Origin: Terriglobia bacterium
GTDB lineage: Bacteria; Acidobacteriota; Terriglobia; Terriglobales; Acidobacteriaceae
DNA: 64,000 nt
Assembly (NCBI GenBank): GCA_032252755.1
Contig: JAVUPY010000017.1
Coordinates: forward strand, 62,001-126,000
Reading direction: 5' to 3'
Translations under genes and position numbers: made by a program
The notes under the pieces: model-generated
What the model was told of the DNA's origin: nothing
Database searches by the model: none
The model's input: the letters and a program-made list of their open reading frames with translations, nothing else
Shown: positions 27,341-46,005 of the stretch, one piece after another
Layout: each line of letters starts with the position of its first letter
Position numbering within the stretch: position 1 is the stretch's first letter

Positions 27341-29035
27341 CTACCGCGTAACCTCCGAGCGTGACTGCGCGGTCGCAGCCCATTCTGTGAGGTCCTCAGG
27401 CAGGTGATTGTAAGTCCGCAGCCCGCCTGATAATAGTTTCGCATTGAACCCATGCTGCAGCAGAATGCGCACGGCGTAATATGCGATCTGGCCTGCGCCG
27501 CAGCAGACCAGGATTTCGCGTTCGCGCGGCAGTTCGTGTAACCGTTGACGCAACTGCTCGACCGGGATGTTGCGTGCGCCATCCAATCGCCCGGCGGCAA
27601 ACTCGAATGGCTGCCTCACGTCGATCACAAATGAATCCCGGCTTCGCACAAAGTCTTCCCATTCGGCGCAAGGCACGTCGCCTCGCATGACATTGGCTGC
27701 AATCATTCCCGCTAAGTTGACCGGATCCTTTGCCGACTTGTACTGCGGGTACCGAGAAGCCCGGCAAAGTTCCGCATCCTCCAAATCGAAAACCTTAGCA
27801 CCCATATGGATGGCCATTGCTATCACATCAATAGTTCGCTCGTCGCCGTTCTCACCGATTTCCTGCGCGCCCAGGACCTTGCCATCGACAACGGAGAAGA
27901 TCAGCTTTATGTGCATGGGACTGGCCCCCGGCTTGTAAGAGGGATGATTGTCGGGATGCAAATAAATACTTTTGAAGTCGGTGATGCCGGAGGATCGGAG
28001 CGCACTCTCCGTTGCTCCCGTGGTGGCCAACGTAAGACCGAATGCCTTGCAGACGCCGGTGCGTTGCAGACCTCGGAATCGTGTCGGACGTCCGCAAATG
28101 GCATCCGCGGCAATACGTCCCTGGCGGTTCGCAAGAGCGGCCGACGCTACCACGCGCGACTCAGTGTCAGGCCATTCAGAGGATTCTGCGATGTCGCCAA
28201 CGGCCCATATGCATGGATCGCTGGTGCGCATCTGAGAATCGACAATGACTCCTCCCCAAGGTCCGAGTTCGAGTCCAGCCTTGGCAGCGAGTACCGTTTC
28301 TGGCCGCAAGCGGGTCGAGACCACCGCCATATCTGTGGCGAAGTGTTTAGTACAACTCGTGCGCACGAGAAGCGCTCCATCCTGAGAAAGGCCAAATGCG
28401 ATCACGTCCTCCTTCAAGTGCACGTCAACGTGACATTCGAGCAGGCGCACCCTGACAAACTCGGCCATCTCGGGATCGAGGCACGGCAGCACTTGCCCCT
28501 GTCTTTCTAGGATTGTGACCTTCAGCCCACGACGCACGAGTTCCTGCGCGGTTTCGAGTCCTATTAACCCTGCGCCGACTATAACCGCCGACTTTGGCCG
28601 ATGGACATCAATCCATTGCTGGATTGACCGGTCGTCGGGAACTGACCGCTGAACAAAAACGCCCGGCAAATCAATACCCGGGAGCGCCGGAGGCCGCGGC
28701 GATGCAAACGGCGCCAGCACGAGAGCCGTGTAGTGATCGTGATAGGTTTCGCCGTTCGTGAGCTGCTTTACGGTCACTTCCTTATTCAGCCGGTCGATGG
28801 CTTCAACCTTGTGCCCGGCCCGAACTTCGATATTGAAACGTGAACTCAGCAGCTTGAGCGAAGCAGGGATCTTGGCCTTCTCTTCATCGGCTGAGGCGCA
28901 GGATTCGGTGCTCGCAACGTATTCGGTCCGTTTGAACAAGACAATCTCAGCGTGCTCATCTAATCGTCGTGCCCGAACTGCGCAGGCTAACCCTCCTGCA
29001 ACCCCACCGACGATCAAAATGCGGTTCCTCGACAT
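27341..29035 (-). CDS. CoA-disulfide reductase-like flavoprotein fused to rhodanese
   Basis: The 564-residue flavoprotein belongs to the pyridine nucleotide-disulfide reductase class: FAD motif LIVGGVAGGLACAVRARRL, NAD motif AVIVGAGLIGLETAQELVRRG and TSDPCIWAVGDIAE. A rhodanese domain occupies about residues 460-555 (DSFVIDVRQPFEFAAGRL), with active-site loop VCCGAGQIAYYA. The architecture matches CoADR-Rhd/NADH persulfide reductases, which act on CoA persulfides and polysulfide. The usual SFANCGLPY redox-cysteine motif is replaced by ASTESCASADEE, so the active site is altered or shifted. AGGAG precedes ATG 29035. It is the last gene of the minus-strand sulfur arm. Confidence 0.88.
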   Translation of the reverse strand: MSRNRILIVGGVAGGLACAVRARRLDEHAEIVLFKRTEYVASTESCASADEEKAKIPASLKLLSSRFNIEVRAGHKVEAIDRLNKEVTVKQLTNGETYHDHYTALVLAPFASPRPPALPGIDLPGVFVQRSVPDDRSIQQWIDVHRPKSAVIVGAGLIGLETAQELVRRGLKVTILERQGQVLPCLDPEMAEFVRVRLLECHVDVHLKEDVIAFGLSQDGALLVRTSCTKHFATDMAVVSTRLRPETVLAAKAGLELGPWGGVIVDSQMRTSDPCIWAVGDIAESSEWPDTESRVVASAALANRQGRIAADAICGRPTRFRGLQRTGVCKAFGLTLATTGATESALRSSGITDFKSIYLHPDNHPSYKPGASPMHIKLIFSVVDGKVLGAQEIGENGDERTIDVIAMAIHMGAKVFDLEDAELCRASRYPQYKSAKDPVNLAGMIAANVMRGDVPCAEWEDFVRSRDSFVIDVRQPFEFAAGRLDGARNIPVEQLRQRLHELPREREILVCCGAGQIAYYAVRILLQHGFNAKLLSGGLRTYNHLPEDLTEWAATAQSRSEVTR

Positions 29036-29134: not shown

Positions 29135-31714
29135 CTACCTGTGATCCTCTGTTTTGCCGGCCGTTGTACTCTGGCTGGCATCTTGTTTCGTTGCGGCGAA
29201 GGTGTAATTGCCTTGCAGAAACTGCTCTACAAACCATCGCATAACGGCATCACTGGTCATATACATGTCAAGTTGACTGGCGGAAGCCATGAGGCGCCCG
29301 AGAATATCGAGGTTGGCCTCAGTTTCTTCCGCCGGCGCTTTCTTGAACCAGGCATTAACGAGATCGGCACGGCGATCGACGACGAAGCCATAGTGCGCGA
29401 GACAAGCCTCTATGAAACATGCGCGAAGATTGCGCCGATAGTGCACTGCGCCGCCCCCAGCGAAGCGGAATGAAATATAGTTATGACTCGGTACGTCGCT
29501 CAGGCAGGCATCGACCAGGCTGAAGTGATAGGCAAGCCGGGAGTTCAGGTTCATGTACTCGTCGGCCACGAGCAGATAGCTCATGTCTCCAAGCGCGCGG
29601 GTTGGACCGTGAACTGCCGTGAGGGCATTGGAAATCACAGACGCCAGATCACCAAAGCTAGCGGGTATCTCGCGTCTCCAACTGACGTCTGGCCGGCTCA
29701 TTCCTCGCCAAAGAGCCTGAAAAGGTCTGGAAACAATTTCTTCCGGCCTGACTTCCTCAGTTGAACCATTCGTACTGGCCAATCCCCCACCTAAATCGAG
29801 GACGTGGAGATTGACCGGCACTGGGGTGAGGAGCCTCCGGGAAGTGCGCCGGGATCCGCTTTCCAGTTCGATGTCACCTACCTCAAACATGATTCCGATG
29901 GCTTTCTCGTGGCAGAAGCGGAGCACATCGTGGGCCGACTTGCAGCCGGATGGTCGAAAATCGGCGGCTGCGGGATCAAGCAAATGAAGTGTAAGCAGGC
30001 GCTCGCTGATCGGATCTACTGGATTTTTCCACCGACGGTCACTGCCACTTACCTCGATCGTGCGGGACGGCCACAGGTTTCCGGCATAAACCCTCGGCTG
30101 AACAGCATCGAGGCTGACGGGATCGCCCGCATGTATTTTTTCGAAGACGCCGTTCAGTTGAAAAATGGCGGGAATCTTGGCTTCCCGTAATAAAGCGGCG
30201 GCGTGCCCTGTCACGTTTCCCGACTCTGCGACAAGGCCGGCAATACGGGGGAACACTTCCACGATTTCAGGCGAAGCTCTGCGTACAAAAAGTATTGCTC
30301 CCTCCGGGGTGGTTTGCAGAAGTCTGGGTTCAGAAACCAAATATGCTGTTCCCGACACTCTCCCGGGGTACACAGTACGGCCACCGGCCAGCAATGGTTC
30401 CTGTTTGATCCGCGATTTCGCCTTGATGGAAGCGGCTGTCGCAAGAGCTAACGTCCGTGACTGCACGATCCAGAGCTTGCCTGCGTCATCCAGAACCCAT
30501 TCCACATCCTGCGGCGTTTTGAAATGTTCCTCCAACTGCACGGCCCATGCAGCGAGAGTCTCAACTTCGGTGGGGGTCAGGCTTGGCGCAGTGACCTGCG
30601 TTGAGGGAAGTGGGCGACGAGCGTGCCCACCTGTTTCCAGAAGTACAATTTCCTCCTCCTTGGCGGCGACGCTCTGCTCGACAATGTGGTGCGGTCGCCG
30701 GCGAGTAACCACAAACAGGTCGGCCGGCACCCGGCCGCTGGCAATATCCAGTCCCAGTCCGTGAGTGGCCGTGATCCACAGAACGTTGCTCTTCGGGTCT
30801 GCCGGATCGCGACTATACAAGATGCCCGACGCGCGTGCGCGAAGAGTATTCAGAAAAAGGACAGGGAGCGCCGTCTCGATTTCCGACAGTCCGGCTGAGA
30901 GGCGATAGAACAGGGCGCGCTCGCTGAAGCGTCCGGCGACAACACGCTTGTAGGCATCGATCAACTGATGAGGTGGAACGTTGAGCAAGCTCACGAACTG
31001 GCCTGCAAAAGTGCGCTCTCCTCCTTCACCCACCGCACTGGAGCGGACCGCCAATCCAGCCGATCCCTGGAGTGCGCGAGCTCGCTCGATGATTGCTACC
31101 TCGATCGCCCGCGGAACGGGCAACTCCATCACCATCGCAGTGAGTTGAGCGGAGATTCTTTGCAAGGCGGCGAGATCGTTGAGATCCAGATTGTGAGTGG
31201 CGTCGCGAATCTTCTCCCACAGCGGCGTTCCGCAGAATTGCCGGTAAGCTTCGGCGGTAAGCACAAAGCCGTCGGGCACGGGCAGATGAAGCTTGTTACG
31301 AATTTCGCCCAGGGCTGCTGCCTTGCCGCCCGCTTCGGCGATGTCGGTTCCCTGGACCTCATCCATGCGGTGGGAAAAATCCGGGGGGATCAATTCCTCG
31401 CGCGCTGCCACATAGCGTTCCACTTCGTTTCGTTGGACCTGAAGAGACTGATGGAGTTGTGAAAACGACAGTCCGCTCAGGCATTCGAGCGCGGAGACCG
31501 TACCGTCCGCTTTCTGGAAGACCGCTGCGGTTTTTTGGCCCATTATCTCCCGACGCGGTGAGACAAAGCGGAGGTCTTCCTGTATCCCCGCCATCAGTTC
31601 CAGACATTCATTATTGAAAGAGAGTAGTTCACGGAAACACACATAACGGCGTCGGATCCGATCTTCAGTAGCGCCGGCAGGTTCAGCTGGCTTCTTTTTT
31701 GACCACCATGACAT
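29135..31714 (-). CDS. PEP synthase-like protein (PEP/pyruvate-binding plus phosphohistidine domains)
   Basis: The 859-residue protein has a family-specific N-terminal region (1-120) and a PEP/pyruvate-binding (ATP-grasp) domain from about 125 to 430 (GTDIAEAGGKAAALGEI, AVRSSAVGEGGERTFAGQF, VEWVLDDAGKLWIVQSRT). A swivelling phosphohistidine domain follows at about 450-550, with the histidine in AESGNVTGHAAALLRE. The C-terminal 300 residues do not show the TIM-barrel PEP-binding domain of true PEP synthase. The reaction is therefore uncertain; phosphoryl transfer from ATP to histidine is plausible. It lies between the lipoprotein gene and the CoADR-rhodanese gene in the sulfur arm. Confidence 0.8.
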   Translation of the reverse strand: MSWWSKKKPAEPAGATEDRIRRRYVCFRELLSFNNECLELMAGIQEDLRFVSPRREIMGQKTAAVFQKADGTVSALECLSGLSFSQLHQSLQVQRNEVERYVAAREELIPPDFSHRMDEVQGTDIAEAGGKAAALGEIRNKLHLPVPDGFVLTAEAYRQFCGTPLWEKIRDATHNLDLNDLAALQRISAQLTAMVMELPVPRAIEVAIIERARALQGSAGLAVRSSAVGEGGERTFAGQFVSLLNVPPHQLIDAYKRVVAGRFSERALFYRLSAGLSEIETALPVLFLNTLRARASGILYSRDPADPKSNVLWITATHGLGLDIASGRVPADLFVVTRRRPHHIVEQSVAAKEEEIVLLETGGHARRPLPSTQVTAPSLTPTEVETLAAWAVQLEEHFKTPQDVEWVLDDAGKLWIVQSRTLALATAASIKAKSRIKQEPLLAGGRTVYPGRVSGTAYLVSEPRLLQTTPEGAILFVRRASPEIVEVFPRIAGLVAESGNVTGHAAALLREAKIPAIFQLNGVFEKIHAGDPVSLDAVQPRVYAGNLWPSRTIEVSGSDRRWKNPVDPISERLLTLHLLDPAAADFRPSGCKSAHDVLRFCHEKAIGIMFEVGDIELESGSRRTSRRLLTPVPVNLHVLDLGGGLASTNGSTEEVRPEEIVSRPFQALWRGMSRPDVSWRREIPASFGDLASVISNALTAVHGPTRALGDMSYLLVADEYMNLNSRLAYHFSLVDACLSDVPSHNYISFRFAGGGAVHYRRNLRACFIEACLAHYGFVVDRRADLVNAWFKKAPAEETEANLDILGRLMASASQLDMYMTSDAVMRWFVEQFLQGNYTFAATKQDASQSTTAGKTEDHR

Positions 31715-31791: not shown

Positions 31792-32391
31792 TCAATGTCC
31801 TCCGCCGCCGCTCTTAGCCAAGTCGGTCTTGGTCACATTCATGAGACGAATGGCCTGGCCGGGCTGCTTGTAGTAATAGCGCACCTCATCGCCAGCCTTC
31901 CAGGTTTCGTCAGGGAGCGCGACGTCCGCATCCGTCAATGCAAGCGTAACCAGCATCCGCTCCGACGGGGAGTATAGAGTCAGGGTCTTGTTTTGGCGAT
32001 CAATTGCGGGCAGTTGCCTCTTAGCAACGCGATCATCGTCGCTGGTAACTCCTTTGCTCTCGGCAATCGGCGAGTAGCGAAGACTCCTAAGGGTTTGCTC
32101 ATGATAAAAAACGATCTCCCGCTTTTTGGCATTGAGGAGGAGTAGTTTCCCGGGATCGGGAGCGGGCCCCATTTCGCTTGCTATACCTGGAATCCGTACT
32201 TCGCGCACGGGCAAAGCATACCTGGGTTCTCCGGGGCGAGGATTGTCGGCTTCGAGGACTATTGTCATGACGCCCCTGGACTTGTCGTACTCGACCACGC
32301 GGCCCTGGCTGACTCGTCCCAGTTTGCAGCCGGAAAGCAACACAAGGCCCAAGGTTGCGGCGAGAGTAACAGACCATGATTTGTTAAACAT
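31792..32391 (-). CDS. DUF4881-like lipoprotein
   Basis: The 199-residue product has a lipoprotein signal peptide with lipobox LLSGC. The mature part begins with GRVSQGRVVEYDKSRGVMT and ends with the conserved-looking WKAGDEVRYYYKQPGQAIRLMN. From memory this matches DUF4881 proteins of Desulfovibrio-type sulfate reducers; the function is unknown. The frame is open 30 bases further upstream, but ATG 32391 has AGGTG before it and yields a proper signal peptide. It follows the TauE gene by 16 bases, so it is probably co-transcribed. Confidence 0.75.
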   Translation of the reverse strand: MFNKSWSVTLAATLGLVLLSGCKLGRVSQGRVVEYDKSRGVMTIVLEADNPRPGEPRYALPVREVRIPGIASEMGPAPDPGKLLLLNAKKREIVFYHEQTLRSLRYSPIAESKGVTSDDDRVAKRQLPAIDRQNKTLTLYSPSERMLVTLALTDADVALPDETWKAGDEVRYYYKQPGQAIRLMNVTKTDLAKSGGGGH

Positions 32392-32407
32392 GTTCACCTC
32401 GTCAGAA

Positions 32408-33481
32408 TCAGGCGTGAACAAGGTCAGCCTTGCTCTCCTTGCGCAGAGCGCGTTCCTCGCGTACGCCGCGGATGAACTTCATAAGAATGAACAGCGACAA
32501 CGCAGAAACGAGTCCTATGATGAGAACGGTCGCGGAGATGTCCAGAATCCCTTTTAGGCTGGGCACTGCTGAGGCAAGGATCTTGAACAGGATCGACACG
32601 CCGCAGCCGATAACCGCGATCCCGAAAAATACGCGGATGCCATATCCCTTGACGTACTTGGTGGCTATCGAACCGATCTGCGCGCCGATAGATGAGCCCA
32701 CGAGCATGATGAGGGCTGCCAGAAGTTCAGTCCGACCCTTGTAGCTGTAGGACGCGGCACCATACAGGCCGGAGATAACAATCTCAAACAGGTCGGTTCC
32801 GACCGCGATATGTGTTGGACAGCCAATCAGGTAGATCAGCGCAGGCATGCGGATCAATCCGCCGCCTATGCCCAGTACTCCGGCGAGCCAACCCGTGAAA
32901 AAGCTTACAAGGATAGGCAGCCAGATGGAGCAGCGGATACCTGCCCGTTTGAAGTGCACTACGGGAGGAATTTTTATCTTGTGGAGCGTCTTGTGCCACT
33001 CTATGCCCGTGGCGAGCGCATCCAACTGCCGCCCGGAGGCCAGCGCTTCGCGTTCCTTCTTTCGACGCTTGGAAACATCCGTGAACACCAGCCAGGCGAT
33101 CAGGGTAAGTAACACAAGGTAGCCAACGCGAACATAAAGATCAATTTTGCCGATCCTCTCCAGCCACATGATCATCTGGGCGCCAGTCTCAAAACCGCCG
33201 ACGGTGCCAATCACCATGATCAGACCGAGACGATAATCCACGTTGCCGAACTTACCGTGACGCAATGTGGAAACGAGTGATGGACCGGACATCTGGGCAA
33301 CATCCGTGCCAATAGCGAAGGCCATGGGGAATCCGAGGATATTCAGGCCCGGTGTGACCATCCACCCGCCGCCCATGCCAAAGAACCCACCGATCATCCC
33401 GACGCCGAAACCGAGGACTACAAGACCCGGCCAAAATATCTCCGTTCCCGAAATTGGCATGAATATGTGGAGCCAATCCAT
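32408..33481 (-). CDS. TauE/SafE-family permease (fourth, divergent copy)
   Basis: The 357-residue membrane protein has about eight to nine hydrophobic segments and the two TauE/SafE repeats, GFFGMGGGWMVTPGLNILG and LGIGGGLIRMPALIYLIG. The central cytoplasmic loop is longer than in the three tandem copies upstream and holds KRRKKEREALASG. Family members export or import sulfite, sulfoacetate or other organosulfur anions; sulfate or sulfite uptake is the natural inference here. The start is ATG 33481, with GGAGG nine bases upstream. It is preceded by the small membrane-protein gene. Confidence 0.85.
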   Translation of the reverse strand: MDWLHIFMPISGTEIFWPGLVVLGFGVGMIGGFFGMGGGWMVTPGLNILGFPMAFAIGTDVAQMSGPSLVSTLRHGKFGNVDYRLGLIMVIGTVGGFETGAQMIMWLERIGKIDLYVRVGYLVLLTLIAWLVFTDVSKRRKKEREALASGRQLDALATGIEWHKTLHKIKIPPVVHFKRAGIRCSIWLPILVSFFTGWLAGVLGIGGGLIRMPALIYLIGCPTHIAVGTDLFEIVISGLYGAASYSYKGRTELLAALIMLVGSSIGAQIGSIATKYVKGYGIRVFFGIAVIGCGVSILFKILASAVPSLKGILDISATVLIIGLVSALSLFILMKFIRGVREERALRKESKADLVHA

Positions 33482-33509
33482 TTGTTTAGACCTCCGTTCC
33501 ACGCACCGC

Positions 33510-33800
33510 TCAGTGTTCCGACAGTTCTCGAGACTTCAGGTTGATGCCGAGGCGTACCATTACAATGCTGGTCAATCTGCCGAATATCAGAGCGGTCACG
33601 GGGATAACAACGATCGTGATCGCGGCAAACCAGAAATGGCTATCGTTGTAGAGATTGGCCCACCAAGCCTGCCAGCCGGTGAACTTACGGCTGTCGGCTA
33701 CGATCACCGGGGAGTCGCCGGGACGTGGCGCGGCAAACAGCCACAAAGGCAGGAGCACCAAACTGAGTGTGGTCATTACTCGAGCGAATTGTCTGGCCAT
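33510..33800 (-). CDS. Small two-helix membrane protein
   Basis: The 96-residue product has an N-terminal hydrophobic segment (about 10-27, possibly a signal anchor), a short periplasmic-type stretch rich in tryptophan (GWQAWWANLYNDSHFWF) and a second membrane helix (about 54-76), then a basic tail. I do not recognise a family. Its place directly before the fourth TauE/SafE gene, 28 bases apart, suggests an accessory subunit of that transporter. A longer open frame exists upstream (to 33965), but ATG 33800 with GAGG in front gives a sensible protein. Confidence 0.65.
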   Translation of the reverse strand: MARQFARVMTTLSLVLLPLWLFAAPRPGDSPVIVADSRKFTGWQAWWANLYNDSHFWFAAITIVVIPVTALIFGRLTSIVMVRLGINLKSRELSEH

Positions 33801-33837
33801 ACACAACCTCTCTTTCCAGCCTTCAGGCGCACGGAGG

Positions 33838-34653
33838 TCAGGAGCGCATCGGCACCATGAGTTCATGAGTATCGAGACCGCTGACTCCCGGCACTGCGCT
33901 TGCGACGCGGCGCACCGCATCAAGTTGTTCGATCGTGTTGAGTTTGCCGCGGATCGATACGACACCCAACTCGCTTGAGGTCTCGACCTCCACGTCCCCG
34001 GTCGCCCGGTCGAGCGCGAGTTCGGCGCGCACGCGGCTCGCCAAGGCGAAATCGTCCATACACTGCTTGCACCGGGAGGTGAACTCGAAACAGCGCTCCA
34101 ACATTACAGTGCTGATCAAATTGCAGGCATTTTCGATCGTCAGGTGTTCGAGATTGATCACCACGTCGTAAAGAGATGAATCTTCCCAGTTGACTCCATA
34201 GAGAAGCTGAGTCCACTTGCGGCGGTCTTCATCCATCCGGTGGATGTAGGCGATAGCCTCGTCGCGCCCGTATTTCAGGCGATCGCGAACCATTTCAATT
34301 CTCTGTTCGATGGGTGCGATGACACGTGTGCGAAGGATATGTGGTCCGCCTTGCAGGAGAAGGTGTCCGGCCAATCCGTGATAGATCGCCTTGCCGTCCT
34401 TGACCTCCTCCGTCAGCGCTGCCTGGATCAGTGCCAGGTAGACATAGCGGCGATGACTGAAGCGCTCGAAGAATCCCGGAGGCCGTTCCAGCGCTTCCCG
34501 GATCTCTTGTTGAGTCACGCCTCTTCCGGACGCGGCCGCACGCTCCACGATGACGTCACGGTCGATGCAGCGATAGCCGAGTTTCTTGGAGAGGCACTCG
34601 GCGAGCGTCTTGCCGCCGCTGAAGGAACCCCGGGATATCGTGATGATCGCCAT
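33838..34653 (-). CDS. Cytidylate kinase-like protein with C-terminal BON domain
   Basis: The 271-residue protein begins with a nucleotide-kinase-like P-loop (ITISRGSFSGGKTLAECL), followed by GYRCIDRDVIVE, as in cytidylate kinase-like proteins. Arginine-rich lid elements follow (RTRVIAPIEQRIEMVRDR). Residues about 205-270 form a BON domain (VRAELALDRATGDVEVETSS and GVVSIRGKLNTIEQLDAV). The substrate is unknown; similar fusions occur in sulfate reducers, from memory. AAGGAG precedes ATG 34653. It sits between the TIGR02186-type gene and the small membrane protein gene in the sulfur arm. Confidence 0.82.
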   Translation of the reverse strand: MAIITISRGSFSGGKTLAECLSKKLGYRCIDRDVIVERAAASGRGVTQQEIREALERPPGFFERFSHRRYVYLALIQAALTEEVKDGKAIYHGLAGHLLLQGGPHILRTRVIAPIEQRIEMVRDRLKYGRDEAIAYIHRMDEDRRKWTQLLYGVNWEDSSLYDVVINLEHLTIENACNLISTVMLERCFEFTSRCKQCMDDFALASRVRAELALDRATGDVEVETSSELGVVSIRGKLNTIEQLDAVRRVASAVPGVSGLDTHELMVPMRS

Positions 34654-34720
34654 TGCATACTCCTTTATCTGAGATTCTGGAAATCCTCCACACACTCACC
34701 TGCACGACTGCAGTTGCGCT

Positions 34721-35623
34721 TCAATGGTGCACGACCCGTTCGCCCGGGGCCTCGACTTCTTTCTCCGCAGGAACGCCCACTGGCGGTGGAAGTTCCGGCG
34801 GACGGGGCCTTGTCGGTCGCCGCAATCTTGAAACAACCGCATCGATTCCGAACCCCGCGCACATTGCAGACAATACAGCGAGCAAGCCATACCACCACGG
34901 ATGCTTGTGGGCAAGCGTTACCATGAACTCTGGAAAGCCAACCTCCACCAGGTTCAGCGTCGTGGCGGCGCGACCCACAACGGCGCGGTCCCGGCATGCG
35001 TACACCTCGACCTCATAAGCACCGGGCGAAGCCGTCCTCGGCCAGTGAAACGACAACGTGTAGTGCCCCGCAGGACCTTCGTTTGCGATATCTACCCGGT
35101 TTGCGACGCGACGGTAGGTTCCGTCACTTTTCTTCAGGTCGAGATAACTCTTTTCGATCAAATCCCGGTATAGCGGGTCCGGATCGCCCTTTCCTGTCCG
35201 GATATGCATCCTCTTCTTGACCGACAATTCGTCTAGTTCGTAGTCATCAATGGTCGCGCGGTCGAGAAAGGTATGCATGTCCGCGCTGCTGAACCTTAGG
35301 AACAGTGACGGAGTTCCGGTCACGTGGACCTTATCCACCGTCACCCAGATCGGACCTACGCGGCCTTTCTTGTTGAACAGTTCGTCCTTCGCGGGACCTC
35401 GAACGATGACGATGATCTGCGACCCCCTCGGCACCGTTCCCTCGATGCGCACCGGCGCGCCATTGTAGAACGTCCCCATCTCGATCTTTTCGGGGGAAAG
35501 CCGCAAGGTGGTCGCCGGCATCGCCATGGCCGCGTCAGCCGGTGCCGGGACCTTCTCGGTCTGAGAGAAAGCTTGTCCCCCGAAGCAAAGGGCAGCGAAT
35601 AACAATACGATTACCGGTACCAT
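34721..35623 (-). CDS. TIGR02186-type (Alph_Pro_TM) membrane protein
   Basis: The 300-residue product has a signal peptide (about 1-20) and a large periplasmic region containing IEMGTFYNGAPVRIEGTVPR and QIIVIVRGP. One membrane helix lies near residues 232-255, followed by a proline-rich cytoplasmic tail. It matches the TIGR02186/PF09608 family first noted in Alphaproteobacteria, where it adjoins TauE/SafE permeases, as here. An accessory role in sulfur oxyanion transport is inferred. It starts one base after the stop of the upstream TauE gene, with GAGG eight bases before the ATG. Confidence 0.8.
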   Translation of the reverse strand: MVPVIVLLFAALCFGGQAFSQTEKVPAPADAAMAMPATTLRLSPEKIEMGTFYNGAPVRIEGTVPRGSQIIVIVRGPAKDELFNKKGRVGPIWVTVDKVHVTGTPSLFLRFSSADMHTFLDRATIDDYELDELSVKKRMHIRTGKGDPDPLYRDLIEKSYLDLKKSDGTYRRVANRVDIANEGPAGHYTLSFHWPRTASPGAYEVEVYACRDRAVVGRAATTLNLVEVGFPEFMVTLAHKHPWWYGLLAVLSAMCAGFGIDAVVSRLRRPTRPRPPELPPPVGVPAEKEVEAPGERVVHH

Positions 35624-35624
35624 G

Positions 35625-36641
35625 CTAATGACCTCGTGATGCCCATACCTGGGCTACCGCAGTGCGATGGTCACGCTGGACTTCGGCGTGCCCGCCTGAA
35701 GGCGAAAGCGGGTTGGCAGGCGGCAGCACGATGCCCACTGCCATTCGTATTCCGACCGCAAGCGCCAAAACTCCGAGCACAATGAGCAGTTGCTCGCCCC
35801 TCAGCCGCTTGCTCACTCGTGCACCGATCTGCGCCCCGATTGTCGATCCGGCGGCGATCAGGATCGCCAAAACGACATCGACCGTGTGATTGGTGGCCGC
35901 CTGCATGAGAGTCACTCCGATACACGTGAACATGATCTGGAACAGATCGGTACCAACCGCCACGTGAGCCGGCATGCGAAGGATGTACACCATCATCGGC
36001 ACCATGATGAAACCGCCACCGACGCCCATTACGGCGGTCATGATGCCGACAAGACCACAGAGACAAAAAGGCACCAGGAGCGAATGCCTGACGCCCGAAC
36101 GTTCAAAGCTGATTTGGAATGGAAGTCGCTCCAGCATAGAGACCCTGTGGGTTGGCCTGCTGCTGTGCTTTGGCTCCATTACGCCGCGCCGTAGCTTCTT
36201 GATACTGTCGCGCAAGGTGAAGCTTCCAACCCCACCCAGCACGACGATATACATGATGGTGATCAGAAAATCGGCGCCACCCGATGCTCGCAGGATCTTA
36301 ATCACTTGCACGCCCAGCGCCGATCCAAATACCCCCCCGACAAGGCATACAGTTCCCATCCGCAGGTCTACATTCTTCAGGCGAAAATGGGCCGCGACAC
36401 CGGAGGCCGAGGTCGCGACGATAGCATTCGTATCGGAAGCCGCAGCCACCGTGAGCGGAACCCCGATCATCGCCAGGATCGGGGTCATGAGAAAGCCGCC
36501 TCCGACTCCGAGTAAGCCCGACAAGAAACCGATCACGGCCCCAGCCGTTATCAATAACGCGAAATTGATGGATAACCCCGCAATTGGAAGGAGGATCGGA
36601 ACTGCCGCAACTGCCACCACGGCCACCAACAGGAATTTCAC
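35625..36641 (-). CDS. TauE/SafE-family permease, tandem copy 3
   Basis: The 338-residue polytopic membrane protein carries the repeats GLLGVGGGFLMTPILAMIG and VMGVGGGFIMVPMMVYILR. It shares the strings LPIAGLSIN and ASDTNAIVATSASGVAAHF with copies 1 and 2, so these arose by tandem duplication. The start is placed at GTG 36641 because it lines up with the ATG of copy 2 and overlaps that gene's stop codon by four bases (GTGA); a GTG at 36647, closer to GGGGAGG, is the alternative. The open frame extending to 37211 overlaps copy 2 and is spurious. Confidence 0.87.
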   Translation of the reverse strand: MKFLLVAVVAVAAVPILLPIAGLSINFALLITAGAVIGFLSGLLGVGGGFLMTPILAMIGVPLTVAAASDTNAIVATSASGVAAHFRLKNVDLRMGTVCLVGGVFGSALGVQVIKILRASGGADFLITIMYIVVLGGVGSFTLRDSIKKLRRGVMEPKHSSRPTHRVSMLERLPFQISFERSGVRHSLLVPFCLCGLVGIMTAVMGVGGGFIMVPMMVYILRMPAHVAVGTDLFQIMFTCIGVTLMQAATNHTVDVVLAILIAAGSTIGAQIGARVSKRLRGEQLLIVLGVLALAVGIRMAVGIVLPPANPLSPSGGHAEVQRDHRTAVAQVWASRGH

Positions 36642-37657
36642 CGGCACAGACACCTCCCCACTGGACATGCGCTGGCAACGATCACATGTGGCCGCTGCAG
36701 GGATGCAGCTGGTCCCGCAGGACGCTTCAAAACGTTGGGCGGCGCCAGCACAAGGGCCAGCAACATCTTCATCATCATCGCAAGCGCCAGGACTGCCATG
36801 AGTCCCATCAGTTGATCGCCGCGGAGGAAACGGCTCAGGCGTGCTCCGGCCTGCGCACCCAGCGTCGAACCCAGGGCCACGATCAACGCCAGTACAATAT
36901 CGACCGTATGGTTCGCCCCCGCCTGCATCACTGTCGTGCCCGCACATGTGAACAGGATCTGAAACAGGCTCGTACCCACGGCAACGTGCGCTGGCATGCC
37001 CAGCAGGTACACCATCGCAGGCACCAGGATGAATCCACCACCGACGCCCATGATGGCGGTCATCAGGCCGACGATAACTGCCAGCGCAAGAGGCACCAGC
37101 ACGGAATGGCGAACTCCAGAGCGTGGAAAATCCAACTGCCATGGCAGCTTCGAGAGAATCGGCGAAGTAGCTCGTCGTTCGTCTTTTGCCTGCATGGCTC
37201 CTCGGCGCCACTTACGTATGCTGTCGTGCAGAATCAGGCCGCCAACGATTCCGAGCATGGCGACATAGGCCAGATTGATGACGAGATTGGCGTTTCCCAC
37301 TCTTTCAAGCGATTCCAGGATGCGCACACCGAACGCGGACCCGAGCAGACCGCCGATAAGAGCGACGACTCCGATGCGCAAATCGACATTCTTCAACCGG
37401 AAATGCGCGGCCACTCCGGACGAAGATGTCGCCACGATAGCATTCGTGTCGGAAGCCGCGGCCACTATCGGCGGAACACCGATCGTGATGAGAATTGGCG
37501 TCAGCAGAAAACCTCCACCCACGCCGAGCAGTCCAGAAAGGAGACCGATCAAAATCCCCGATCCGATCAGGAAACTGGAATTGATCGACAGGCCAGCGAT
37601 GGGCAACAGGACTGCAGCGGAGAAAACGAGCATAGCCGCGACCACTACGGTCTTCAT
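36638..37657 (-). CDS. TauE/SafE-family permease, tandem copy 2
   Basis: The 339-residue membrane protein has about eight helices and the two glycine motifs GLLSGLLGVGGGFLLTPILI and AIMGVGGGFILVPAMVYLLG. Most of its length aligns by eye with the copies on either side; NTVDIVLALIV-type and GSTLGAQAGARLSRFLRGDQ segments are shared. The start ATG 37657 overlaps the stop of copy 1 by four bases (ATGA), and its own stop overlaps the GTG of copy 3 in the same way. The three products are therefore likely made in coupled amounts and may act together. Confidence 0.9.
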   Translation of the reverse strand: MKTVVVAAMLVFSAAVLLPIAGLSINSSFLIGSGILIGLLSGLLGVGGGFLLTPILITIGVPPIVAAASDTNAIVATSSSGVAAHFRLKNVDLRIGVVALIGGLLGSAFGVRILESLERVGNANLVINLAYVAMLGIVGGLILHDSIRKWRRGAMQAKDERRATSPILSKLPWQLDFPRSGVRHSVLVPLALAVIVGLMTAIMGVGGGFILVPAMVYLLGMPAHVAVGTSLFQILFTCAGTTVMQAGANHTVDIVLALIVALGSTLGAQAGARLSRFLRGDQLMGLMAVLALAMMMKMLLALVLAPPNVLKRPAGPAASLQRPHVIVASACPVGRCLCR

Positions 37658-38661
37658 GGTCGCGACCTCCGGTGCGGTGTCGAAAACAACTGCGATGGTA
37701 GATTCGAATTCGTATCGGCGATCACGAATACCTCATGCTGAGCCGATGCGACTGAACCTGTCGGGTGCCTCAACAGGTGGTCGGGGGCCACTACGAGACC
37801 GATTACCATCTTGAACATCACCGCGAGCGCCAGGACACCAAGCAAGCCCATCAGTTGGTCGCCGCGCAGCAGGCGGCTCAACCGTACGCCTATTTGCGCG
37901 CCGATGGTCGAGCCCACTGCGAGCAGCAGTGCCAGCACAACATCCACAGTGTGATTAGTTCCCGCCTGCAGGTAGGTTGCTCCCAGGCAAGTGAACAGGA
38001 TTTGAAAAAGACTTGTACCCACGGCAACGTGCGCCGGCATCCCCAGGAGGTAGACCATTAATGGGACCAGCATGAAGCCGCCACCCACTCCCATAACAGC
38101 GGTCAGAAGCCCGACTGCGACACACACGAACAGAGGCACAAGGACGGAATGACGAACCCGCGAATGGGGGAAATCAACCTGCAACGGCAGCCGCGATAAC
38201 CAGTTCAGGCCGCGAGGTGTAATACTGGCCCGATAAATACTGCCGGAGCGCCATCTGCGAAGACTCGTACGGAGAATGAAGAAACCCACCGCTCCGAGCA
38301 TAATGATGTAAGCGAGATCTATGACGAGGTTAGCGCTTCCTGCAGCCTCTAACCCTTCCATGATCCGCACTCCAAAGGCTGAACCCGCCAATCCGCCAAG
38401 CACGGCGATTGCACCCATGCGTAGATCAACGTTTTTCAAGCGAAAATGGGCGCCGACTCCAGAGGAGGATGTCGCGAGAATGGCGTTGGTGCCTGAAGCG
38501 GCGGCGACCACGGGCGGGACACCGATCGTGATCAGCATCGGGGTGAGCATGAAACCGCCCCCGACGCCTAACAGGCCGCACAAAACGCCAATGAGTCCGC
38601 CCCCGACGATCAACAGCACGATGCTGATGCTGATCCCGGCAACCGGTAAAAGCACGTGCAT
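37654..38661 (-). CDS. TauE/SafE-family permease, tandem copy 1
   Basis: The 335-residue membrane protein has the motifs GLLGVGGGFMLTPMLITIG and AVMGVGGGFMLVPLMVYLLG. The N terminus is a few residues shorter than in copies 2 and 3. ATG 38661 was chosen because GGAG lies five bases upstream; a GTG six bases earlier is possible. It lies 193 bases downstream of sat and begins the block of transport genes. Since Sat needs cytoplasmic sulfate and AprBA/DsrAB generate sulfite, sulfate uptake or sulfite traffic is the likely job; ion and direction are not readable from sequence. Confidence 0.88.
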   Translation of the reverse strand: MHVLLPVAGISISIVLLIVGGGLIGVLCGLLGVGGGFMLTPMLITIGVPPVVAAASGTNAILATSSSGVGAHFRLKNVDLRMGAIAVLGGLAGSAFGVRIMEGLEAAGSANLVIDLAYIIMLGAVGFFILRTSLRRWRSGSIYRASITPRGLNWLSRLPLQVDFPHSRVRHSVLVPLFVCVAVGLLTAVMGVGGGFMLVPLMVYLLGMPAHVAVGTSLFQILFTCLGATYLQAGTNHTVDVVLALLLAVGSTIGAQIGVRLSRLLRGDQLMGLLGVLALAVMFKMVIGLVVAPDHLLRHPTGSVASAQHEVFVIADTNSNLPSQLFSTPHRRSRP

Positions 38662-38854: not shown

Positions 38855-40117
38855 CTACTTCTTTACCCCGGTTGCAGCCGAGTGCAGCTTAACTTCGACT
38901 TTTTCTTCCAGCTTGTCGTAATACTCTTTCAGGATCGCAATTACTTCCGGCCGAGAGAATTCCGCCGGCACGGGTTTACCTTCGCTCATCAGTTTCCGCA
39001 GCAACGTACCCGAGAGCAGGAGGCGCGCACCACCCTTGTAATTGCCATTGTCGTCAATCACCGCCTTGCTCTCGTGAGGGCAAGTCTTCATCGACGCCAT
39101 GCTTCCACACTCATAACAATAGAATGTCCAGTCCATGCAAAGGGGCTGCAGACGCAACGCTCCTGCCGGGACTTCATTGAAGATCTTCTGTGCATCGAAC
39201 GGCCCGTAGTAGTCGCCAACCCCGGCATGATCGCGCCCCACAATCAGGTGCGAGCATCCGTAGTTCTGGCGGAAGACGGCATGCAGCAGAGCCTCGCGAG
39301 GTCCGGCGTAACGCATCTCCATTGGATATCCGCCCTGGATAACTCGCTCCTTGCGGAAGTACTTGTTAACGAGCGCGTCGATTGCCTTGACGCGCACGTC
39401 CGCCGGAATGTCGCCGGGCTTCAGCTTGCCCAGGAGCTGGTGAACGTACACGCCGTCGCACACCTCGATGGCGATCCATGCAAGGTATGCGTGGGAGTTG
39501 TGCATCGGGTTTCTCAACTGCAGGGCCGCCACCGTGCTCCAGCCGCGTGATTCAAATTCCTTGCGAGCTTCCGCGGGACGCTGGTAAATCCCCTTGAACT
39601 CATCCGGGAAGAATGACTCGGAGATGACCTTGACCGGTCCGGCCAGGTTCACATCCGGCTGTTCCATGACCTTCTGGACTCCGGGATGCGCCGGATCAAC
39701 CGTGCGGAAAACTTCCTTGCACTCGTGTTGCTTGTCGTACTTGTATTTCTCGGTCACTTTCATCGTTCCCATCAGTTCATTGGTTTCGCTATCCCACAGC
39801 GCCACCTCTTCCCCTAGGGCGATGGAGTTCGCCAGATCTTCCTTGACGGATAAAGTGATCGGGATTGGCCAGAAAAGCCCTTTCCTGCTCGGCAAGCTGT
39901 AATCGTCGCAGCTCCCTTTCCAGTCGTCCTTGCCCATGAATCCGTCGAGTGGAGTGAAAGCGCCGATCGCCATCATCAGCAGGTCGCCGGTTTCCCGACT
40001 GGTCATCGGCACCTTCTTCATGCGGGCGGCCCGGCTGATCTCCTCGATTTGCTGGGCGCCTTCCAGTAACAGCGGTTTAAGTTCCGTACTGCCATGTGGA
40101 GGAACTAGTTTGCTCAT
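38855..40117 (-). CDS. sat: Sulfate adenylyltransferase (ATP sulfurylase)
   Basis: The 420-residue enzyme activates sulfate to APS, or runs in reverse to make ATP. It is the homo-oligomeric dissimilatory/fungal-like type: [10 protein letters not shown] at 200-209 is the HxxH nucleotide motif, and GRDHAG is at 294-299. A zinc-binding cluster [17 protein letters not shown] (C334, C337, C346, H348) is typical of dissimilatory Sat. No APS-kinase domain is present. The ATG at 40117 has GAGGAGG eight bases upstream. It follows qmoC by 76 bases in the aprBA-qmoABC-sat order. Confidence 0.96.
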
Positions 40118-40193
40118 GTATGATGCCTCCTCAAAATTAATCCCTTGGTCCAAACCCCTATTGAATGCCCGCGCCGCGAGCTGTCTGGCAGTT

Positions 40194-41372
40194 TCATCCA
40201 TGCTCTGTTGCCGGAGTTGCAGCCCCAGTCTCCAATGCCTCCAACTTCGCGGATTCTGCCAGCACCCCGGCAACATAGATCCCCAGTGGCCGGTACAACA
40301 GGTGGGCCCACTTCCCGAATGGCACTTCGACCACCAGCATCGGCACGGCGATCATCATGTGCACGGCGTAGGTCGTGTACGTCGCGATCGGCAGATTCAT
40401 CAACCGAAACACATTAACGGCAATTCCTGTAACAGCCGTCAGCAGCAGCAGCACAGGGAACAGCCAGTCAGAAAGGTGGCTGAAGCGATGCATCTCCGAT
40501 GACTTGCGCATCCGGTCAACGATCATCCATATCGTTACAACCACCAGCACAGCCGTGGCGTAGTAGCCGAGAATGCTCGTCCACTGGAAACTCGCGTCTT
40601 TCACCTGGAACCATGGCAGGAACACCACCACCATGGTGAACATGCTGCCGTACCCGGTTACGAGCAAGAGATGTCGTATCCAATTCTTGAGCGCTTCCGG
40701 GTCGTTGCACTGTTTCCATCGCGATTGCGCCACAGCCTGTATCACGAACTGCGGAAGCTGCGTCAGATAAATGCGGAAGCGGATGCGCCTGCCCGCGGTG
40801 AGACGCAGGAACATCCGCAGCGCATTGCTCATCAGGAGAAGGCTGAGAATTAATGCCAGCACCGTGTCGCCCAAGTGCACCATCTTGACCGGAGCGAACT
40901 TCTCCAGCATTACGGTGGACATCGCCTCGGGTCCGGAACGGTGCAGCAGTCCGAAGCCAAAGCTCTGCGGGACGGTAAACAACGTTCCAACAAGTACCGC
41001 AACCAGGAGGAGAATCCCGATCTCCCAGTACGCCGAGCGATACATCAGCCGCGACAAACCGGTCCAGTCATACGCGGTAGTGAGATACCGGCGCAAGGCC
41101 ATCATCATCTCGCCGGGATCCGCCTTGCGAGGACAGAGCTTGGAACATTCGCCGCAGTAGAAACAGAGCCACGGTCCGGGATCCGCCAGAAGTTCGTCCC
41201 TCAATCCCCACTGAGCCAGCAGCACCTGCTTGCGTGGAAACTGGTGCTCCGACGTCGCCAGACTGCAAGCGGAAACACAGGTAGCGCACTGGTAACACTT
41301 CTTGAACTCTCCGCCGCATTCCAACGCGTCTTCGATAAACTTCCGGTCCGGCCGAATCGTTACCGTAGCCAC
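40194..41372 (-). CDS. qmoC: Quinone-interacting membrane-bound oxidoreductase subunit QmoC
   Basis: The 392-residue subunit fuses an HdrC-like ferredoxin domain to a membrane cytochrome b-like domain. The ferredoxin part has [11 protein letters not shown] (C26, C29, C32, C36) and [11 protein letters not shown] (C70, C73, C76, C80). About six hydrophobic segments follow, with histidines suitable for heme b. It would pass electrons from menaquinol to QmoAB and AprBA. The true start is GTG 41372, one base after the qmoB stop; the open frame further upstream overlaps qmoB. The order qmoA-qmoB-qmoC matches sulfate reducers. Confidence 0.94.
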
Positions 41373-41373
41373 A

Positions 41374-43626
41374 CTAGAACCCCTTGTAAGGATTGGGACC
41401 GAGGTCCCGTACCTTTGCGACAAATTGGTTGATCGTGTCCGGCAGCGTGAGATAGTCGTCTGCCGACACTTGCACCAACTGGATGCGCTCGGATTCCAAC
41501 TGCAAGCGCTGCAGAGTTTCCTTGACGTTTTCCAGGCGGCGATTCGCCAGTTCGCTCCCACGCACGAAGTGGCATTGGTAATCGTCGCCGAACTTGCATC
41601 CCAGCAGCAGGATGCCGTCCACACCACGGGAGAGGGCGTCGGCAATCCACACGATGTTCATCGACCCTAGGCAGCGCAGCGGAATGATCCGCACACTGGC
41701 GTCGTATTGCAGGCGTTCCATGCCGACCTGGTCGAGCACCGGGCAGGCATCGTTCTCGCAGGCGAAGATGACGATGCGCGGCTTCTCTTCATCTTCTTCC
41801 GGAACTTCGATCGCCTTCACCATGCTTGCGATCATTTCCACCGAGTAGTTCTTGAAAGATACGATCCGCTCCGGACAGGCCCCCATGCAGATGCCGCACC
41901 GCCGGCAGCGATAAGCATTGAACTTCGGCGTGCCCTTCTCGTCCTCGTCGAGAGACCCAAATGGACATTCCTCGGTGCAGCGTTTGCACTGCGTACAGCG
42001 CTGCAGAGAGAAGACGGGATACGAAAGATCGCCGGCGCGGGGATGCAACGCCTGCCCTTGCGAGGCCATGTGCACACTTTGGATTGCCTTCATTACAGCG
42101 CCCGCAGCGTCTTCCTCGGCGCGCACCATGTCCATCGGCGCGCGTACGGCACCCGCCGTGAATATCCCCGTCCGCCGAGTCTCGTATGGGAAGCAGATAA
42201 AGTGGGAGCTCGGGAACCCACCGTTACGTACTGGCAGATCCGGCCCTTGACGGTAGGTCAACCGAAGGATCTCCGTGCCCTCGTGTCGTTTCAGTTGCTC
42301 TACTGTTAACTCCGCTTCCCGGCGTTGGGTTTCGGACTCATTGCGGGCGACTTTTTGCTGCGCATCGTGCAACGCGCGGATGGCTTCGCCGTCGGCGGAG
42401 TTGGGAACCATGCCTGTTGCCAGAACCACCATGTCCACAGGGATGCTGATCGATTTCCCAAGCGGCGAATCGGTTACCGTGACGGAGAGCTTTCCGTCGC
42501 CACCGCGTGCCACCCCCTTCACTTCTCCCTTGGTGAAAAAATTGAGCGGGTGGTTCTGGACCTTCTGGTAGTACTCTTCGTACCGTCCCGGAGTGGTGAC
42601 ATCCTTGTAGATGACAAAAACATTCGCGGTGGGATTCTGTTCGCGGATGTACTCCACCTGTTTCAGCGTCGTCATGCAGCAAGTGGAAGAGCAGTAAGCG
42701 AGATGTTGCGCGTCACGCGATCCGGCGCACTGCACGAACAAGATGCTCTCTACCGGCTTCCCGTCCGAGACCCGCTTGATCGGCCCCGCTGCACCGAGGC
42801 TCTCCAGTTCGACGCTGGTTACGACATCCGCAACTCCATATCCGAGTGCACCAAGCTTCTTTGCGTCGTATGGCTTCCATCCGGTTGCCATCACGATCGC
42901 GCCTACCCGGTGCACCGCGCTGGAGGCGCCATTCTGAAGTGTCACATCGAATGCCCCGGGCTGCCCCTCAGTGCGTACGATTGTCGTCGAGCAGAACACC
43001 TTTACGCGGGGGTGCGACATAACCGCCGCAATGCGCTCCGGTAGCGGACTTGGCACGGCCTCTGTGAAGGGCGCGTGCATGGGATAGGTCTTCTTTATGC
43101 CGGCGAGCGCTCCGCCCAGGCATCGCTGCTTCTCGACAAGCAGTACGTCACACCCGGCGTTGGCAGCGTCGAGCGCCGCAGTGATTCCGGTAATTCCACC
43201 ACCGACCACGAGGAGTGTGTGGGAGACCGGGTCCGCCAGCGGTTCCAGCGGTTCCATGTGCCGCACTTTGCTGACGCCCATCCGCAGAGAATCTTCCGCT
43301 AATGCCTGGGTCTCTTCGTCTTTCGGCACATGGCACCAGGCAACCTGCTCACGGAGGTTTACCCGGTCGCTGACTACAGCACCGTTGAAGTTGAACTGCT
43401 GAGTCTTCGCGCGCGACGAACAACCCGCAATGACGACAGCGTCGATACCGGCACCTTCGATATCCTGCCGGATCTGTGCGGTGCCTTCGTCGCCGCAAAG
43501 GAATTCATGCGTCCGGCACAACTCTGCCTTGCACTCTTTCATCGCGACGCTCTTGAGGCTTTCAACATCAAGCGCTTCGCCGATCGAACAACCGGTGCAG
43601 ACATAGACTCCGACACGCTTATTCAT
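41374..43626 (-). CDS. qmoB: Quinone-interacting membrane-bound oxidoreductase subunit QmoB
   Basis: The 750-residue flavoprotein is HdrA-like. It has an FAD motif (VVGGGITGITAALDAANAG), a pair of [4Fe-4S] motifs at residues 544-588 (CTQCKRCTEECPFG and CRRCGICMGACPERI), and an MvhD-like C-terminal domain (about 615-740; FACENDACPVLDQVG, RCLGSMN and LLGCKFGDDYQCHF). It partners QmoA and QmoC in electron delivery to AprBA. The ATG at 43626 overlaps the qmoA stop by eight bases and has AGGGG upstream. Confidence 0.95.
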   Translation of the reverse strand: MNKRVGVYVCTGCSIGEALDVESLKSVAMKECKAELCRTHEFLCGDEGTAQIRQDIEGAGIDAVVIAGCSSRAKTQQFNFNGAVVSDRVNLREQVAWCHVPKDEETQALAEDSLRMGVSKVRHMEPLEPLADPVSHTLLVVGGGITGITAALDAANAGCDVLLVEKQRCLGGALAGIKKTYPMHAPFTEAVPSPLPERIAAVMSHPRVKVFCSTTIVRTEGQPGAFDVTLQNGASSAVHRVGAIVMATGWKPYDAKKLGALGYGVADVVTSVELESLGAAGPIKRVSDGKPVESILFVQCAGSRDAQHLAYCSSTCCMTTLKQVEYIREQNPTANVFVIYKDVTTPGRYEEYYQKVQNHPLNFFTKGEVKGVARGGDGKLSVTVTDSPLGKSISIPVDMVVLATGMVPNSADGEAIRALHDAQQKVARNESETQRREAELTVEQLKRHEGTEILRLTYRQGPDLPVRNGGFPSSHFICFPYETRRTGIFTAGAVRAPMDMVRAEEDAAGAVMKAIQSVHMASQGQALHPRAGDLSYPVFSLQRCTQCKRCTEECPFGSLDEDEKGTPKFNAYRCRRCGICMGACPERIVSFKNYSVEMIASMVKAIEVPEEDEEKPRIVIFACENDACPVLDQVGMERLQYDASVRIIPLRCLGSMNIVWIADALSRGVDGILLLGCKFGDDYQCHFVRGSELANRRLENVKETLQRLQLESERIQLVQVSADDYLTLPDTINQFVAKVRDLGPNPYKGF

Positions 43627-44887: not shown

Positions 44888-44888
44888 G

Positions 44889-45713
44889 TCACTTAATGGC
44901 TGCGGCGCTTTCTGCGGGCTGTGTCTCCACCCGCTGTGTCGCGATCTTCTTGAGCTTCATCCGTTTTGCGTGGAGGATGGAAAAAGCGATCCAGTCGAAG
45001 GCGAACTCCAGCAACTCTTCGTCGTCGGTGCGAATTGCTTCTATACGGGTCTCATCCACTTCAAAGAAGTCAAGGAACTTGGTTTGGAAGATGAAGCGGC
45101 GGAAGCGATCGACGTCATATGCGGCCATGTAGAACATGGCCAGTTTGTCCGGCGTCAGCGCCTCGCGGTTCTCCCATCCGCCGTGTCCCATCAGTCGCCG
45201 GAATGACTCGTCCAGGGCTTCCGCAGCGTCCACTTGCTGCTCTGCCATCCAGTCGCGCACCGAGAGTTCCCGCTCGGCTGCGTGTCCTTCGCAAATCTCC
45301 TCGCGAACGACGAAAAAGAATCGTTGCGAAACCTGGGCACTATCTTTCGGTTCCGCCATCCCCAGCGGATACATGCGGCACGACCACGGGCGCTGTGAAT
45401 AGACGGCGCATCCCCGCTCACCGACAAACGGACAATTCTGAGAATTCTCGTCCATCTTGAGGAAAACTACCGGCGTGCCTTTTTCCTTCGATTCCAGCAC
45501 CAGCGTGTACTTTTCGAGGAAATCGGAGGAATCCATCTTCAAAGCGCGCTTCATCCGCAACACGTCATAGGGAGTCAGCAGGATGGAGACGTCATGACAG
45601 CATCGGGTAAAACACTTCAGGTCTTTGTCGCAACGGAAGCAGAAGTGGTCGTCTAGCCCGAGCCGTGGAGAGTTTTCTACTACCGCATTCGCCTTGAGGT
45701 CAGTTTCGATCAT
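44889..45713 (-). CDS. YkgJ-family cysteine-cluster protein
   Basis: The 274-residue protein has the cysteine pattern of the YkgJ (CxxxCxxCC) family: FCFRCDKDLKCFTRCCHDV near residues 24-42, then NCPFVGERGCAVYSQRPWSCRMYPLG. The family probably binds zinc or an iron-sulfur cluster; its role is not established. The C-terminal half is helical with no known domain. Its ATG lies inside the 3' end of the zinc-ribbon gene (14-base overlap), and qmoA follows after one base, so it is locked into the apr-qmo operon. A part in cluster assembly or APS reductase maturation is conjecture. Confidence 0.82.
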   Translation of the reverse strand: MIETDLKANAVVENSPRLGLDDHFCFRCDKDLKCFTRCCHDVSILLTPYDVLRMKRALKMDSSDFLEKYTLVLESKEKGTPVVFLKMDENSQNCPFVGERGCAVYSQRPWSCRMYPLGMAEPKDSAQVSQRFFFVVREEICEGHAAERELSVRDWMAEQQVDAAEALDESFRRLMGHGGWENREALTPDKLAMFYMAAYDVDRFRRFIFQTKFLDFFEVDETRIEAIRTDDEELLEFAFDWIAFSILHAKRMKLKKIATQRVETQPAESAAAIK

Positions 45714-45996: not shown

Positions 45997-46005
45997 AGCG
46001 ATTCA

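Follow-up and report, generated by a model that had tools for sequence, protein, structure and literature searches.

A window of 64,000 nucleotides on contig 17 of a Terriglobia bacterium (Acidobacteriota; assembly GCA_032252755.1, contig JAVUPY010000017.1, positions 62,001 to 126,000) contains five closely packed genes (31792-35623), which an earlier note on this DNA suggested might be a single transferred sulfur-anion transport system. The block comprises two modules of TSUP (TauE/SafE) permeases and not one system: a triplet of a small membrane protein of the DVU0150 family, the permease TauE4 and a DUF4881 lipoprotein, and a pair of the permease TauE3 and the periplasmic protein Alph_Pro_TM. 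The block closes a dissimilatory sulfate-metabolism island (aprBA-qmoABC-sat) on its downstream side, and dsr genes adjoin the island. There is about an even chance that the triplet transports an oxyanion of sulfur, with inward movement of sulfate for Sat as the likeliest case, beside the second TSUP module, and that it was exchanged independently of the apr genes.

The triplet is supported by a scan of genome contigs with a TauE4 alignment, which yielded 15 loci (12 from Acidobacteriota and 3 deltaproteobacterial). At all 15, the permease gene is preceded by DVU0150 and followed by DUF4881 on the same strand; because the scan was not conditioned on neighbours, it provides an unbiased test of linkage, though among close relatives. 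The same pattern is found across the Desulfovibrio class, for which 247 genomes were covered. DUF4881 is present in 99 and DVU0150 in 115 of them, and all 99 fall within the 115; in 98 of the 99, both genes share a strand and DUF4881 trails DVU0150 by 1146-1253 bp, leaving space for one TauE gene. TauE4 shares 63-87% identity with its counterparts from acidobacterial and Desulfobacterota triplets, and its nearest loci are acidobacterial (Terriglobia). DUF4881 exceeds the cut-off in 53 of 395 genomes from the wider phylum of genome G454 and is rare in Acidobacteriota (1/396 sampled genomes; 2/61 relatives). The notion of a transport module common to sulfate reducers is therefore borne out for the triplet. 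The five genes were rejected as one system, because kinase-BON and Alph_Pro_TM do not accompany the triplet into Desulfobacterota. The supposed tie of the kinase-BON gene to a Desulfovibrio-type module was not seen either: the gene is found beside the module at 8 of the 12 acidobacterial loci and at none of the 29 Desulfobacterota loci whose neighbourhoods were inspected.

The distribution of the triplet is linked to that of aprA. Within the Desulfovibrio class, aprA is encoded by 214 of the 247 genomes, including all 99 with DUF4881 and all 115 with DVU0150 (hypergeometric probabilities of 9e-9 and 1e-10, respectively, uncorrected for shared ancestry). Only three of the 61 relatives possess aprA; DUF4881 occurs in two of these three and in no other relative, and the aprA gene of one of the two is partial, at a contig end. 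The third (G008) lacks the triplet; behind its sat gene are TauE, Alph_Pro_TM, kinase-BON and PPDK-like genes instead, so that TSUP modules appear to be interchangeable in this position. Among the 15 genomes with a triplet, 12 have a full and one a partial aprA; the remaining two (SbA1 and G450), both metagenome-assembled, have none. Genes for sat, apr, qmo or dsr-associated proteins flank the triplet at 9 of the 12 acidobacterial loci. In the triplet-free G008, a complete genome (locus L016, G008:C98, 948-20000), the genes behind aprBA-qmoABC-sat comprise kinase-BON in three copies, a PPDK-like gene, Alph_Pro_TM and two TauE genes, and a stretch of its QmoC is merely 29% identical to that of the window.

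The triplet and the apr genes seem to have different histories. The median identity of TauE4 is 67% between the two phyla versus 71 and 74% within them, whereas AprA from the same genomes shows 53% between versus 85 and 83% within. In maximum-likelihood trees, the ratio of between- to within-phylum divergence amounts to 1.64 for TauE4 and 1.53 for DUF4881 as opposed to 12.9 for AprA, which serves as the yardstick; saturation in fast-evolving genes could lower this ratio. If the triplet had split along with the apr genes, a far greater cross-phylum divergence would be expected than is seen. The simplest reading is one or a few events of lateral exchange of the triplet between the two phyla, Acidobacteriota and Desulfobacterota, which renders the transfer suggested by the earlier note probable for the triplet. 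All Desulfobacterota permeases are placed on one side of a 100/99 branch of the TauE4 tree, providing no sign of very recent exchange. The distance matrices of TauE4 and DUF4881 from Desulfobacterota are correlated (r 0.79, versus 0.27 for TauE4 and AprA), a pattern that partner proteins should show. A mobile element was rejected as the carrier: plasmids were seen only for haloarchaeal TauE4 relatives of 38% identity, and the window has no tRNA or Rfam match. If the triplet was indeed exchanged in this way, the acidobacterial sulfur island would be a mosaic whose transport parts differ in history from its enzymes.

The second module extends beyond the block as drawn, because TauE3 (stop at 35625), which lies 1 bp upstream of Alph_Pro_TM, was not included. 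In all three annotated alphaproteobacterial loci (Ruegeria, Sinorhizobium (S. meliloti) and Sphingomonas), a TIGR02186 gene directly follows a TauE gene; this agrees with the association given in the earlier note, but the counterpart in the window is TauE3 and not the TauE of the noted block. As in the alphaproteobacterial TauE/SafE-TIGR02186 pair, TauE3 and Alph_Pro_TM are adjacent or overlapping and occur in the same order. They differ from it in their surroundings, with sat and apr around the window pair and no such sulfate-reduction genes around the three alphaproteobacterial loci, and in the Alph_Pro_TM-type partner, which is 22-25% identical. Alph_Pro_TM scores 152 bits with its Pfam profile (over 24.5) and 71 bits with TIGR02186 (cut-off 255), which identifies it as a member of the Pfam family and not as the alphaproteobacterial equivalog. 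Its structure model, based on four sequences, is poor (pLDDT 51.5). TauE3 and Alph_Pro_TM may represent another TSUP system, in which the partner of the permease is periplasmic and anchored in the membrane.

TauE4 is a full-length member of the TSUP family (143.7 bits over 32.6; profile positions 1-236 of 237), and its family suggests that it would form the channel. The DVU0150-family protein has two hydrophobic segments by hydropathy, 5 Trp in 96 residues and the conserved motif VADSR...YNxxH...SRELAEH; its size, topology and strict linkage suggest that it acts as a small subunit in the membrane. The DUF4881 protein is a lipoprotein with a lipobox Cys that is conserved in all 16 aligned members, and would be a lipid-anchored beta-domain protein on the outer face that may serve in docking or substrate handling. 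Together, the three proteins may import sulfate or another sulfur oxyanion, with substrate, direction and physical complex all putative. The AlphaFold2 model of DUF4881 (mean pLDDT 89.6) is all-beta with a possibly OB-like arrangement. Its nearest solved chains are OB-fold proteins, the best of which is CusF (VIA-align Z 8.2, roughly the level reached by unrelated models; 72/178 residues, 3.3 A), and Foldseek retrieved no match at E <= 0.001. An assignment of function from this structure was rejected, because the model, although confident, offers a generic OB-like resemblance alone. Searches for solved relatives by sequence gave none for TauE4 or Alph_Pro_TM and one chance-level match for DUF4881, and the accessible literature yielded nothing on DUF4881, TIGR02186 or DVU0149/0148. 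At one acidobacterial locus (L025, 11827-12882), a second TauE4-type permease (69% identical) is located directly behind DUF4881, apparently a tandem duplication of the triplet permease.

PMC5840216 describes sulfate import by dissimilatory sulfate reducers as poorly settled, with some genomes lacking any well-characterised transporter family. TSUP proteins, presented there as abundant and of unknown function, are suspected sulfate transporters where other families are missing, and are the only candidates in the sulfate reducers Desulfohalobium and Ammonifex. The acidobacterial SbA7 has the pathway without sulP or dass, according to PMC6018796. The genome of the window (5.39 Mb, 99.98% complete) has no SulP match and stays below the thresholds for DASS (24.8 vs 27 bits) and the sulfate-binding ABC protein (23.7 vs 155.5 bits) in a search that did not include CysP/PiT. 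Likewise, the single-contig genome G515 (2.36 Mb), which carries the triplet, has no match to the SulP, DASS or sulfate-binding ABC profiles. The absence of the tested rivals from the host genome makes TSUP the leading candidate for sulfate entry. Combined with the placement behind sat and the restriction to genomes with aprA, it makes sulfate import the best-supported guess, drawn from context. The more specific proposal of a three-component TSUP sulfate importer that is seen solely with aprA or in dissimilatory-sulfur contexts, moved between phyla apart from apr and serves lineages without SulP, DASS or ABC transporters is more doubtful and should be regarded as tentative.

Several observations weigh against sulfate import by the triplet. 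With ten TSUP genes in the host genome, TauE4 need not be the route of sulfate entry, and the rival search left room for CysP/PiT-type transporters. The triplet is missing from many genomes with aprA, and in some of those that have it SulP or DASS is encoded as well. The distances of TauE4 and DUF4881 are not significantly correlated in Acidobacteriota (r 0.09, n=10). The co-location with sat and apr, by which the earlier note proposed to check its idea, holds for most acidobacterial loci but for none of the 29 in Desulfobacterota (sat, apr, qmo and dsr inspected), where the triplet stands apart beside its own regulator. This regulator is a divergently encoded one-component sigma-54 activator with a weak match to a periplasmic dCache domain, joined at a single locus by a weak match to HAMP; dCache domains often bind organic ligands.

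The latter findings speak for a rival reading with another small anion as the substrate, for example an organic acid used by sulfate reducers and sensed by the DVU0151-type regulator, in which case the position in the island would reflect shared physiology and not the chemistry of sulfate. The operon of D. vulgaris has been labelled merely 'transmembrane transport' (PMC4641369), which leaves room for such a substrate. The sulfur genes in the acidobacterial flanks, the restriction to aprA genomes and a host genome devoid of the sulfate importers searched for argue against it and make it rather unlikely. The TauE protein of Cupriavidus is thought to export sulfite (or sulfonate), and an analogous function of the triplet would shield the cell from sulfite produced by AprBA or by a pathway running in reverse. 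The permease belongs to the TauE/SafE Pfam family, sulfite is an intermediate made by the island, and the genome encodes a dsrL-like gene, with a reverse pathway proposed as a possibility for these Acidobacteria in PMC6018796. However, membership in the TauE Pfam family does not distinguish importers from exporters, no genes for sulfonate degradation were identified among the annotated neighbours, and sulfite export would forfeit the electron acceptor after an outlay of ATP, so that this function is unlikely.

The idea that chance alone assembled unrelated genes, each with its own history, in one lineage of Acidobacteriota draws on the fact that the five do not all travel together, and it holds for the five-gene block as drawn. 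It is contradicted for the triplet, because a three-gene core that is collinear in two phyla is far beyond chance, and is very improbable as a general explanation. The triplet has its closest known parallel in the operon DVU0150-DVU0146 of D. vulgaris Hildenborough, the predicted target of the sigma-54 activator DVU0151 (PMC4641369). DVU0150 is the founder of its family, and relatives of D. vulgaris carry the small protein, TauE and DUF4881 in the order of the window; consistent with the published regulon, their triplets have a sigma-54 activator divergently upstream. By contrast, the window triplet has no DVU0151-type activator upstream, where kinase-BON and TauE genes are located instead, lies inside an apr-qmo-sat island and is not followed by the two additional genes found behind it in Desulfobacterota. 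The TSUP candidates of PMC5840216 belong to the same superfamily, occur in sulfate reducers and are suggested as the main transporter where SulP, DASS and CysP are missing. That survey sorts TSUP genes by phylogeny and by distance to sat and apr, and its accessible part contains no mention of DVU0150 or DUF4881 partners. The gene content of the window matches the peatland acidobacterial sulfur islands of PMC6018796. The clusters of SbA1-7 are of the same type, and SbA1 has the triplet (locus L020); the main text, as far as accessible, does not name TauE or TSUP, and Fig. 2 marks four syntenic genes of unknown function. The strict collinearity of the triplet, the two partners dedicated to its permease, its limitation to aprA genomes within the Desulfovibrio class and its absence from most Acidobacteriota make this TSUP group a clear choice for experiments, and D. 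vulgaris with DVU0150-0146 offers a genetically tractable host.

In many Desulfobacterota loci, DUF4881 is followed by genes for a two-helix protein of ~110 aa and a protein of ~290 aa with a periplasmic domain between membrane helices and a YWFGxxMWRG motif (for example, L079 8661-9946, L083 8575-9823 and L078 8500-10074, turned to the triplet strand), which are possibly DVU0147 and DVU0146. The ~290 aa protein of L030, the single one scanned, has no Pfam family. A relationship of the extra Desulfovibrio gene behind DUF4881 to Alph_Pro_TM was unsupported (hhalign probability 1.9). A gene for a universal stress protein is located directly upstream of DVU0150 in five Desulfobacterota loci (L071, L076, L080, L085 and L152); in the window, a UspA gene is found at the other end of the run (26450-27316).

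The island of the window consists of a co-oriented run on the minus strand from aprB (48509) down to a gene for a CoA-disulfide reductase-rhodanese protein (27341), in the order aprB, aprA, CxxCxxCC protein, qmoA, qmoB, qmoC, sat, TauE1, TauE2, TauE3, Alph_Pro_TM, kinase-BON, DVU0150, TauE4, DUF4881, PPDK-like, CoA-disulfide reductase-rhodanese (Table 1). Most gaps are <100 bp, except for 428 bp after aprA and ~190 bp between sat and TauE1 (a smaller gap if the neighbour has its alternative start). The tight packing reported for the five genes was correct (all minus strand, gaps of 16-67 bp), but the limits of the block cut through this longer run. All five protein assignments agree with Pfam and NCBIfam profiles; the start positions in the list of open reading frames are mostly too long. 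Genes for dsrA, dsrB, dsrL and dsrMKOP-like proteins follow on the plus strand beyond the run. With sat, aprA, aprB, dsrA and dsrB each scoring over curated cut-offs, the region qualifies as a sulfate-reduction gene island. QmoC scores under its cut-off (NF038018, 217 vs 300 bits), QmoA and QmoB match as HdrA-like, and the CxxCxxCC protein belongs to PF03692.

Table 1. Genes of the co-oriented run and their profile matches (positions in the window).
Feature	Position	Strand	Profile match
DUF4881 lipoprotein, 199 aa, lipobox LLSGC, predicted all-beta	31792..32391	-	PF16222 E 3e-45
TauE4, TSUP permease of conserved triplet, 357 aa	32408..33481	-	PF01925 E 1e-41
DVU0150-family small Trp-rich membrane protein, 96 aa	33510..33800	-	NF040783 E 2e-25, 89.2 bits, cut-off 70
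Kinase-BON: cytidylate-kinase-like P-loop protein with C-terminal BON, 271 aa	33838..34653	-	Cytidylate_kin2 PF13189 E 6e-35, PF04972 E 3e-6
Alph_Pro_TM/TIGR02186-like periplasmic protein, C-terminal membrane helix, 300 aa	34721..35623	-	PF09608 E 3e-44
TauE3, TSUP permease paired with Alph_Pro_TM	35625..36668 (start 36647 or 36668)	-	PF01925 E 7e-47
TauE2, TSUP permease	36638..37657	-	PF01925 E 1e-45
TauE1, TSUP permease	37654..38661	-	PF01925 E 9e-42
PPDK-like phosphotransferase, 859 aa, ATP-grasp and phospho-His domains	29135..31714	-	PF01326 E 6e-69, PF00391 E 2e-14
CoA-disulfide reductase-like flavoprotein with rhodanese domain	27341..29035	-	TIGR03385 E 7e-89 (below cut-off), PF00581 E 2e-12
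sat, sulfate adenylyltransferase	38855..40201 (start 40117 or 40201)	-	TIGR00339 360 bits, cut-off 323
qmoC, qmoB, qmoA, CxxCxxCC protein, aprA, aprB	40194..48509	-	TIGR02061 903 bits, TIGR02060 203 bits, over cut-off

Genes for kinase-BON and PPDK-like proteins often lie near the triplet; the latter is present in the flanks of 22 of the 29 Desulfobacterota and 8 of the 12 acidobacterial loci. In the kinase-BON protein the P-loop is intact (GSFSGGKT), and the PPDK-like protein retains the histidine in the motif TGHAA of its swivelling domain, both as read from the sequence. No PEP barrel was recognised in the PPDK-like proteins of the window and of L030 (4363-6924), and the C-terminal ~300 aa have no Pfam match. 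Sat and AprBA convert ATP to AMP and PPi for each sulfate, so that a nucleoside monophosphate kinase and a dikinase-like phosphotransferase beside sat could serve in the recycling of nucleotides (AMP/PPi). An open reading frame of 85 aa beside the dsr/CbiA genes (61482-61739) shares 61-76% identity across four acidobacterial loci; it has no Pfam match and resembles DsrD in size and place, yet does not match the DsrD profile. The CoA-disulfide reductase-rhodanese gene, which ends the run and is found also in the acidobacterial loci L017 and L025, perhaps encodes a persulfide or polysulfide reductase.

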